NCBI GenBank assembly: GCA_019307645.1
Contig: JAFDJF010000222.1
Span: forward strand, 1-5,393
Direction: 5' to 3'
DNA length: 5,393 bases
From: Deltaproteobacteria bacterium
GTDB lineage: Bacteria > Desulfobacterota > DSM-4660 > Desulfatiglandales > Desulfatiglandaceae
Translations under genes and position numbers: made by a program
Shown here: piece after piece, positions 2,979 to 4,261 of the stretch
Numbering within the stretch: the stretch's first letter is position 1
How the letters are laid out: every line of letters starts with the position of its first letter
Notes under the pieces: generated by a model
The model's input: only the letters and a program-made list of their open reading frames with translations
What the model was told of the DNA's origin: nothing
Database searches by the model: none

Positions 2979-3001
2979 TCAGGCGGAGATCTGTTTTATG
3001 G

Positions 3002-3031
3002 TTGACAATTACTCAATACTTTGAGTAAATT
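3002..3031 (+). promoter_or_regulatory. Candidate sigma70-type promoter of the ATPase gene
   Basis: A perfect TTGACA (3002-3007) is followed after 18 bases by TAAATT (3026-3031, four of six matches to TATAAT). A start of transcription near 3038 would leave a leader of about 35 bases to the ATG. The spacer and -10 are covered by the repeated half-sites described separately, so a protein bound there would block RNA polymerase. Confidence 0.5.
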
Positions 3032-3051
3032 TACTCACCATGCTGAGCAAA
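3009..3051. promoter_or_regulatory. Operator-like array: four alternating half-sites at 11-bp spacing
   Basis: ACTCA at 3011, TGAGT at 3022, ACTCA at 3033 and TGAGC at 3044 alternate in orientation with start-to-start steps of exactly 11 bases, about one helical turn. They form two dyads, TTACTCA-6-TGAGTAA (3009-3028) and TTTACTCA-6-TGAGCAAA (3030-3051). The middle pair makes a perfect 16-base palindrome TGAGTAAATTTACTCA (3022-3037). The array overlaps the candidate -10 of the downstream gene. The layout is that of a cooperative repressor operator. No separate repressor gene adjoins it, so the binding protein is unknown. Confidence 0.65.
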
Positions 3052-3073
3052 TTGTAATCGCATAGGATTTCAA

Positions 3074-4261
3074 ATGTTTAAAAGACCCATTCATCGCGTG
3101 CTAATGGAAAGAATGCTTGAGCAGAGACGGTTCATGCAAGTACTCTACGGCCCCAGGCAAACAGGCAAGACGACCCTTGCCCACCAGGTAATGGCTGATC
3201 TTGAGATTCCCAGCCACTATGCTTCCGCAGATGAGCCCACCTTAAAGGATAGGATCTGGATTGAACAGCAATGGGAAATAGCCCGGCTTAAGGTGGAATC
3301 TGAAGAAAAAGCGTTATTTGTCCTGGATGAAGCCCAAAAAATCGACGGCTGGTCAGAAACAGTGAAAATGTTGTGGGACGAGGATACCGCGAAAAGTCTA
3401 CCACTGTGCGTAATGCTGTTGGGGTCATCCCCGCTATTGGTGCAAAGGGGTTTGACCGAAAGCCTGGCAGGACGATTCGAAGTCATCCCGGTCTCGCACT
3501 GGTCATTTACGGAAATGCGAGAGGCTTTTGATTGGGGTTTAGATGAATACATATTCTTTGGAGGCTATCCCGGCGGGGCTGATCTGATCAATGACCCAAA
3601 AAGATGGTCTAACTACATCAAGGATGCCCTTATCGAGACCACAATCTCACGAGATATTTTGCTGATGACCCGGGTTGATAAACCCGCACTTCTCCGTCGC
3701 CTATTTTACTTAGGCTGTTCATATTCAGGCCAAGTGCTCTCATATCAGAAGATGCTCGGTCAGCTCCAGGATGTCGGCAATACCACTACACTTGCTCACT
3801 ATTTGAATTTGCTGGAGGGCGCAGGGCTTATTGCGGGATTGTCCAAATACGCGGGCCAGCGTGTTCGGCAACGGGCGTCAAGCCCTAAACTCCAGGTGCT
3901 CAATACCGCTTTAATAGCTGCGCAATCTCAACTTACCCTGGAGGAAGCGAAGCAGGATACTGAATATTGGGGAAGGCTGGTTGAATCAGCTATTGGGGCA
4001 ACCTTGATGAACGGTATCAGAGGGGAGAATATCGAAATTTTCTACTGGTCCAGCCGTAATCGTGAAGTGGATTTCGTGCTCTCCCGGGGGAACGCTTTGG
4101 TGGCCCTGGAAGTAAAAAGCGGACACAGAAAAGTTACATTGCCCGGTATGGAAACTTTCTCAAAAGAATTTCCAGTAACGAGGAAATTGTTAGTAGGAGC
4201 ACAAGGGATTCCAGTGGAAGATTTTCTCCTCACGCACCCTCGCAAATGGATTTCACAATGA
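3074..4261 (+). CDS. AAA_14 ATPase with C-terminal DUF4143 (PD-(D/E)XK-like) domain
   Basis: A 395-residue cytoplasmic protein of the common AAA_14/DUF4143 family, complete in length. Walker A is GPRQTGKTT (residues 26-34), Walker B ALFVLDEAQ (80-88), a sensor-1-like LLGSS (115-119), and the family motif SLAGRFEV (130-136) supplies a likely arginine finger. FFGGYPG follows at 162-168. Residues about 210-258 (SYSGQVLSYQKM... TLAHYLNLLEGAGLI) look like a winged helix. The C-terminal domain has YWGRLVES (298-305), then REVDFVL (330-336) and LEVKSG (345-350), the E...D...EVK layout of a PD-(D/E)XK nuclease fold. It starts at ATG with AGGA at 3064-3067, 6 bases upstream. It has no operon partner: gene fragments lie upstream and a convergent gene downstream. 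The family is widespread in anaerobes and archaea, patchily distributed and of unproven function; ATP-dependent DNA handling or a mobile/selfish role has been suggested. ATPase and fold calls are solid; nuclease activity is inferred. Confidence 0.93.
   Translation: MFKRPIHRVLMERMLEQRRFMQVLYGPRQTGKTTLAHQVMADLEIPSHYASADEPTLKDRIWIEQQWEIARLKVESEEKALFVLDEAQKIDGWSETVKMLWDEDTAKSLPLCVMLLGSSPLLVQRGLTESLAGRFEVIPVSHWSFTEMREAFDWGLDEYIFFGGYPGGADLINDPKRWSNYIKDALIETTISRDILLMTRVDKPALLRRLFYLGCSYSGQVLSYQKMLGQLQDVGNTTTLAHYLNLLEGAGLIAGLSKYAGQRVRQRASSPKLQVLNTALIAAQSQLTLEEAKQDTEYWGRLVESAIGATLMNGIRGENIEIFYWSSRNREVDFVLSRGNALVALEVKSGHRKVTLPGMETFSKEFPVTRKLLVGAQGIPVEDFLLTHPRKWISQ

Follow-up and report, generated by a model that had tools for sequence, protein, structure and literature searches.

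The window, by which we mean the whole 5,393-nucleotide stretch of DNA analysed here, carries a gene for a 395-residue ATPase and, in front of it, an array of short half-sites that overlaps a candidate promoter. Its features are, by position:

1762-2391: TetR-family regulator gene, about 620 bases upstream of the array
2995-4260, plus strand: stretch held in common with locus L001 at 83% DNA identity, with no further match in the flanks
3002-3007, plus strand: candidate -35 hexamer TTGACA, a consensus match
3009-3052: entire candidate operator array, two 22-bp units
3011-3015, plus strand: half-site 1, ACTCA, read from the sequence
3022-3026, minus strand: half-site 2, TGAGT (ACTCA on the minus strand), read from the sequence
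3022-3037: perfect 16-base palindrome TGAGTAAATTTACTCA, the centre of the array and its most conserved block
3026-3031, plus strand: candidate -10 hexamer TAAATT within the central palindrome, a consensus match only
3033-3037, plus strand: half-site 3, ACTCA, read from the sequence
3044-3048, minus strand: half-site 4, TGAGC (GCTCA on the minus strand), read from the sequence
3074-4261, plus strand: ATPase gene, 395 aa, with AAA_14, a predicted winged helix and a PD-(D/E)XK-like DUF4143 domain
3149-3172, plus strand: Walker A loop, residues 26-33 (G-P-R-Q-x-G-K-T)
3683-3847, plus strand: predicted winged-helix domain, residues 204-258, from an AlphaFold2 model
3782-3820, plus strand: predicted recognition helix, residues 237-249 (TTTLAHYLNLLEG, TTTLAHY...), the third helix of the winged helix
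4064-4117, plus strand: PD-(D/E)XK-like motif, E331-V-D333 ... E346-x-K348

An earlier note, made from the sequence alone, had claimed four half-sites of alternating orientation at 11-base steps around a perfect 16-base palindrome, and both are found as described, with starts at 3011, 3022, 3033 and 3044 and the palindrome at 3022-3037. The flanking dyads that it also proposed hold at the half-sites themselves but not beyond them, since 3009-3028 is not perfectly palindromic. The outermost copy is indeed the variant TGAGC; the same site reads TGAGT in most relatives, with T as the final letter in 80% of 55 relative loci. The array can also be read as a 22-nt direct repeat (3009-3030 and 3031-3052, 73% alike), and inverted repeats were detected as well. 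Shuffle tests of the window bore out the claim that such regularity is improbable by chance. The window is one mismatch off a perfect four-site array, while the best place was more than three mismatches off in 300 of 300 dinucleotide-preserving shuffles, and a free search (any 5-base half-site, step 8-15, at most one mismatch) found one array in the window and an array in 1 of 100 shuffles. The array is real, and chance falls far short of explaining it.

The two candidate promoter hexamers (TTGACA-N18-TAAATT, 3002-3031) match 10 of 12 consensus positions with a spacer of 18 and overlap the array, and the -10 lies inside the central palindrome, in agreement with the proposal that the array covers it. 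Promoter-like sites number 2 in the window against 0.6 expected from shuffles, which is weak evidence alone. Among 58 clade loci, TTGACA with at most one mismatch is found 16-18 nt 5' of the core in 21, against 2.85 expected; only these 21 have a good -35. The distance from the core centre to the start codon in the 58 loci has a median of 44 bases (range 24-114). In three members of a sister group (L184, L188 and L189) the array lies, by eye, upstream of promoter-like sequence, so that simple steric repression may fail there and either activation or docking is possible. A structured leader RNA was considered and rejected: no Rfam match was found in the window, and the RNA fold of 3032-3073 has a z of -0.30.

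That no regulator is adjacent, as the note had stated, is correct for the immediate neighbour only, because the TetR-type gene stands about 620 bases upstream; this family does not recur among the genes that flank the relatives most often. At 2534-2890 on the minus strand, the window also encodes the N-terminal part alone of an alanine dehydrogenase/PNT protein (118 aa), likely a remnant.

The ATPase matches Pfam AAA_14 (E 2.1e-21) and DUF4143 (E 8e-25), and residues 1-392 match the PADLOC PDC-S01 model PDLC04791 (E 1.8e-176). Walker A and Walker B are both intact across the 145 aligned members, with G26, R28, G31 and K32 as well as D85 and E86 invariant in all 145. The nuclease-like residues are kept in 143 (D333), 141 (E346) and 137 (K348) of these 145. 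The AlphaFold2 model (whole-protein mean pLDDT 88.9) places helices at 204-216, 224-231 and 237-249 and a strand at 253-258, an order from which a winged helix is predicted and which matches the winged-helix-like stretch placed by the note at about residues 210-258. Structural matches to the model span residues 1-286. Pfam run on the winged-helix segment alone returned DUF4143 and no named HTH family, and a PDB sequence search gave only P-loop and other weak matches and no close relative. We rejected a viral origin for the gene, as four viral-contig stretches fit the peptide pattern and none of them encodes a relative. Relatives occur in 6 of 50,697 phage records at E 1e-10 (one at 49% identity, five at 21-27%) and in 4 of 72,556 plasmid records at E 1e-40 or better.

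Scanning genome contigs, we recovered 70 loci that encode relatives at 45-88% identity in the best segment, mostly on MAG contigs; the closest, L001, is a deltaproteobacterial MAG contig with 88% protein identity. Five loci in which the match does not start near residue 1 (L055, L065, L067, L069 and L070) were left out, and the other 65 together with the window make up 66 upstream regions. Because start codons were set by a rule based on their distance to Walker A, the bounds of some upstream regions may be off. The ACTCA/TGAGT dyad at an 11-base step is present in 60 of the 66 regions, with both dyad types in 50. Absence of the motif from all close homologues, which the note had named as speaking against its reading, was therefore not what we found. 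Successive half-sites of opposite orientation lie exactly 11 bases apart in 131 pairs, the next commonest spacing class holding 3, and the 409,357 bases of these loci yield only 2 more dyads. At least two half-sites were found in 64 of the 66 pieces, with a maximum of seven. When loci were sorted by the NCBI phylum of their record titles, 59 of 63 had the phased pair. These comprise every member of 14 of the 16 named phyla and 5 of 6 loci without an assigned phylum; the two remaining phyla, Armatimonadota (0 of 1) and Bacillota (0 of 2), have none. Among 2187 control pieces, 10 contain the phased pair. Across 55 loci the clade consensus is TTGAGTAAAnTTACTCA for the central block and nnnAnTTnCTCAnnnTnTTGAGTAAAnTTACTCAnnATATTGAGTAAATTGT for the array.

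We also searched 18 genomes picked because they hold a member of the clade. Each has 1 to 18 DUF4143 matches, more than 120 altogether, of which 85 were read. Among the matches listed, which cover 17 of the 18 genomes (G018 is absent), all 11 exact core palindromes lie at a DUF4143 gene, as do 7 of the 10 that have one mismatch; the other three are at G008:C19:2155, G012:C41:206864 and G017:C66:7388. The exact core palindrome occurs once per genome among these matches, at the clade gene. With up to two mismatches the pattern is unclean (80 forward matches against 47 for a reversed control), and about 20 of the 80 belong to a repeat in G003. Only one of 75 other DUF4143 genes read from the 18 genomes, L093, has a phased ACTCA pair. 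Equal arrays scattered through the genome, which the note had counted as evidence against its reading, were therefore absent from the loci and genomes examined.

Two observations from these genomes stand apart. At L093 (G016:C76:2398-2413), the array, a start codon and a few further codons lie directly before another DUF4143 gene, and look like what is left of a disrupted clade member at its 5' end. The G003 repeat, with the sequence TGCGAAAAATTACTCA, accounts for about 20 two-mismatch matches, many of them at contig ends (for example L160 at 173 and 4021, and L142 at 3086); as an operator it looks unrelated and was rejected, and we regard it as a candidate dispersed repeat.

Neighbouring genes were counted from 515 flanking frames at 59 loci, after six loci with near-duplicate surroundings had been left out. 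No neighbour is widely shared in this set: the commonest flanking family, which resembles another DUF4143 ATPase, is found at 8 of the 59 loci, and the next, at 4 of 59 (L001, L039, L062 and L066), is presumably AbiE-like, judged by eye.

We compared the letters of the half-site with the predicted recognition helix in a set of 145 members. Three phylum-wide searches, with matches at the chosen cut-offs in 38 of 395, 9 of 299 and 36 of 247 genomes, supplied distant ones. The set excludes 2 of the 65 loci (frames of at most 250 aa), L182 and L196 (no start), L198 (one internal stop), and L207, L224, L230, L233-L235, L237 and L243 (frame not recognised). Of the 129 members whose helix is of the core type, 120 have phased ACTCA and nine lack the pair, against 2 of 16 with other helices. 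The two helix classes were defined after helices and sites had been seen, and the rule was fixed beforehand only for the new-phylum sample described below. The two exceptions among the other helices, L228 and L229, are GTGAG arrays that contain TGAGC by accident. Under a strict dyad rule the counts are 110 of 128 against 1 of 17 (Fisher p 4e-11, relatedness ignored). Both the core helix type and ACTCA are kept in proteins as distant from the window's as L192 (43% identity) and L154 (47%), and valine at 237 alone (GNVTTLAHY, in L041 and L236) leaves the half-site unchanged.

Several of the other helices come with other letters. Of 17 rows tested for step-11 arrays at a threshold of p 0.05, five reached it with three sites and 12 did not; with four sites it was reached by L156, L193, L228, L229 and L239. 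L039, whose helix is GNTDVLAGY, has GGGGT-N6-ACCCG-N6-CGGGT (p 0.015 with three sites, 0.169 with four), whereas the core-helix protein closest to it, at 64% identity, has ACTCA. L156 (GNTDLIKYY) has ACTAG-N6-CTAGC-N6-ACTAG-N6-CTAGT (p 0.005 with three sites and also below 0.05 with four), and L195 (GNVTTIKHY) has AGGAG-N6-CTCCT-N6-AGTAG (p 0.005 and 0.204, respectively). L193 and L194 resemble L195; the former has p 0.139 with three sites and 0.010 with four, the latter 0.119 with three. The GTGAG arrays of L228 and L229 accompany the helix GNAATIA (three-site p 0.010 and 0.005, with the four-site test also significant), and a Bacteroidota group with longer proteins, L239-L249, missed p 0.05 with three sites. 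Thermus oshimai L250 is a counter-example: its helix is GNTVTLAHY, yet it has two ACTAG sites and one ACTCA. This relative is plasmid-borne (pTHEOS01, 240878-245026) and lies, with its mixed ACTAG/ACTCA array, between ABC transporter genes.

In the new-phylum sample, 20 of 296 genomes had a match and 14 loci were read; L256 and L259 (already used) and L254, L258, L269, L270, L272 and L274 were left out. Of the 11 core-helix members, 8 have the pair; none of the 3 others does, and one of those, L271, has no readable helix. By eye, the sites of the three core-helix members that lack the pair are degenerate. L267, with the helix GNTDTIAHY, carries GCTAG-GATATC-CTAGC. On a protein tree computed with the winged-helix columns left out, we counted 7 changes of helix class and 9 of operator class; among independent pairs on supported branches, 2.5 agree in direction and 0 disagree (p 0.25), too few for significance. 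Altogether, the association is strong before correction for the tree and not significant after it, and the half-site letters may tend to change with the first residues of the predicted recognition helix, with the 5-N6-5 geometry kept in several helix variants.

The block common to the window and L001 runs from 2995, just ahead of the candidate -35, to 4260, and L002 and L005 are 98.6% identical over 1296 bases that end at the stop codon. Such alignments suggest that promoter array and gene move between genomes as one unit. The genes apparently carry their control along with them, and their spread over phyla would be easier to explain on that account. Two Desulfobacterales contigs, L002 (1-2027) and L004 (5147-7176), share the ATPase unit at 97%; a second block common to both is found on one side of the unit in one contig and on the other side in the other, as might result if the unit had moved or its surroundings had been locally rearranged.

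Repeats are also frequent upstream of DUF4143 genes outside the clade. From the 18 genomes we took 84 DUF4143 genes, window-clade members included (4 of 89 loci had been left out, then one more for a short upstream part), and compared the 130 bases upstream of each with 60 shuffles, using 120 of 222 control upstreams. At p 0.05, a repeat of either kind, direct or inverted, is present at 50 of 84 genes against 24 of 120 controls, and a direct repeat alone at 34 of 84 against 18 of 120; the controls themselves exceed the nominal rate at p 0.05 (direct 18 of 120, inverted 11 of 120). The 34 direct repeats are spaced by 22 (12 genes), 23 (2), 32 (3), 33 (12) or 44 bp (1), with 4 at other values, whereas the 18 control repeats are scattered, with 3 at 22 or 33. 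Without the window clade, 75 genes fall into 56 clusters at 45% identity; 33 of these have a repeat, and 19 of the 22 direct-repeat clusters are spaced by 22, 23, 32 or 33 bp. A second sample from two other phyla, which had no controls of its own, retained 39 of 57 loci (L275-L331) after filtering and gave a direct repeat at p 0.05 in 17 of 39 genes, spaced by 22 (4 genes, among them L298, a window-clade member), 23 (5), 33 (2), 34 (2) or other distances (4). The spacings in both samples suggest that many family members set their repeats two or three turns apart, with letters that vary from clade to clade. Other DUF4143 clades probably use the same control with a site of their own, at 22-23 or 32-34 bp. 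One paralogue, L075, has a 9-base tandem repeat (GTAACGNAG) just 5' of its start and no spaced repeats.

We consider it likely that the ATPase gene has its operator in the array and is regulated by its own product, through a cooperative autoregulation that would most likely be autorepression. The note had suggested self-control through the winged helix; an array that accompanies this gene in 14 of 16 named phyla and the altered half-sites of several members with an altered helix both argue for it. Its suggestion of cooperative binding on one DNA face is likewise supported as a reading by the conserved 11-base phasing. The winged helix of each protomer would read one 5-base half-site, and protomers would pair on the dyads and align along one face of the DNA, two per 22 bp, such that four span the two 22-bp units. 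Cooperativity would probably come from ATP-dependent contacts between AAA+ domains. The assembly would cover the promoter, block RNA polymerase and repress the gene, and a self-contained nuclease-like ATPase would be held at a low level; we infer repression because of the position of the array over the promoter-like sequence.

The array could instead serve a protein other than the ATPase. ACTCA-N6-TGAGT resembles an ordinary dimer operator, and either a host transcription factor encoded outside the locus or the TetR-type protein encoded 620 bases upstream might bind it and control the ATPase gene. Such a factor, however, would have to be identical in 14 phyla yet spare the paralogues, given that the phased pair precedes the gene in 14 of 16 named phyla and is absent at 74 of 75 other DUF4143 genes. 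No neighbour family occurs at more than 8 of 59 loci, exact core palindromes are found once per genome at the clade gene (among the matches listed), and the site tends to vary with the ATPase's own helix, all of which makes an outside regulator very unlikely.

The protein might also use the array for something other than transcription. The conserved nuclease-like residues and the prediction that this is a defence gene would fit a DNA dock or lock that holds the ATPase-nuclease inactive, or that senses competing (phage) DNA, with promoter control secondary. So would the two or more half-sites, up to seven, in 64 of 66 upstream pieces, and the persistence of the array while its position relative to promoter-like sequence varies (by eye). 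In the window clade, however, the array mostly sits near the start codon (median 44 bases), as an operator would, and we find a role mainly as dock or lock rather improbable. As a mobility or recombination site, with which the ATPase-nuclease would move its one-gene unit, the array would account for shared DNA that in close relatives starts a little ahead of the promoter and ends at the stop codon, and for a family scattered over phyla. But it stands at the 5' end (by eye, none in the 90 bases past the stop in the window and 30 relatives) and overlies a promoter-like pair, and gene-sized blocks of homology also arise from ordinary transfer with diverging flanks; we give this use hardly any credence. 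Autoregulation by the ATPase is the reading that we carry forward. A wider version of it is speculative and in our view doubtful: the superfamily of AAA+ nuclease-like ATPases, which ranks with the most frequent predicted defence genes of prokaryotes, may consist of one-gene units, each with a private two- or three-turn array read by its own winged helix, where the array would be operator and docking platform at once. The bound ATPase would then form an ORC/STAND-like row that silences the gene and restrains the nuclease until foreign DNA or the ATP state releases it.

The DUF4143 ATPases are widespread, little studied and uncharacterised. A conserved, clade-specific putative operator would offer a molecular handle on them, because it implies that the protein reads a defined DNA sequence and names the residues that probably do so, and the helix-site relation predicts swaps between variants that can be tested.

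Among known systems, the nearest by sequence is PDC-S01, a PADLOC putative single-gene defence candidate that we take to be a COG1373-like ATPase. The available part of its published description, where it is one of the candidates from guilt-by-embedding, presents it as an ATPase fused to PD-(D/E)XK and as the fourth most common defence across all prokaryotes, and states that most such candidates still await validation (PMC12988326). The window ATPase matches PDC-S01 over its full length and is thus predicted to be a defence gene of this type; that part of the description mentions no operator, autoregulation or helix-site relation. The archaeal AAA+ ATPases PABY2304 (2qen) and SSO1545 (2fna) are also among the closest known systems. 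The top Foldseek ranks go to ORC subunits and to A. pernix ORC1 with DNA (2v1u), with TM-scores near 0.3 only. Orc1/Cdc6 initiators consist of AAA+ then a winged helix and bind repeats near their own gene; the model of the window ATPase has the same order of domains, but the protein differs in its C-terminal PD-(D/E)XK-like domain.

The comparison extends to regulators of their own genes. RptR, an autorepressor from a phage-defence island, is described in the accessible portion of its report as a separate helical repressor with 6-bp sites, and three 9-bp direct repeats overlap the -10 box of its own promoter (PMC12255303). The window, by comparison, would join regulator, ATPase and nuclease-like domain in one protein, with half-sites phased by 11 bp. 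Iteron-binding plasmid initiators have repeats of about 22 bp before their own gene and autoregulate; we noticed no replicon context in the loci, however, and relatives occur in 4 of 72,556 plasmid records (E 1e-40). Searches of the open-licence literature returned no printed description of the array motif and, in a broader search, no title on the DUF4143 ATPase family among the matches listed. The logic of a self-bound operator is thus already known; what would be new here is its seat in an AAA+ nuclease-like ATPase, the 11-bp phasing and the clade-private diversity of its sites.
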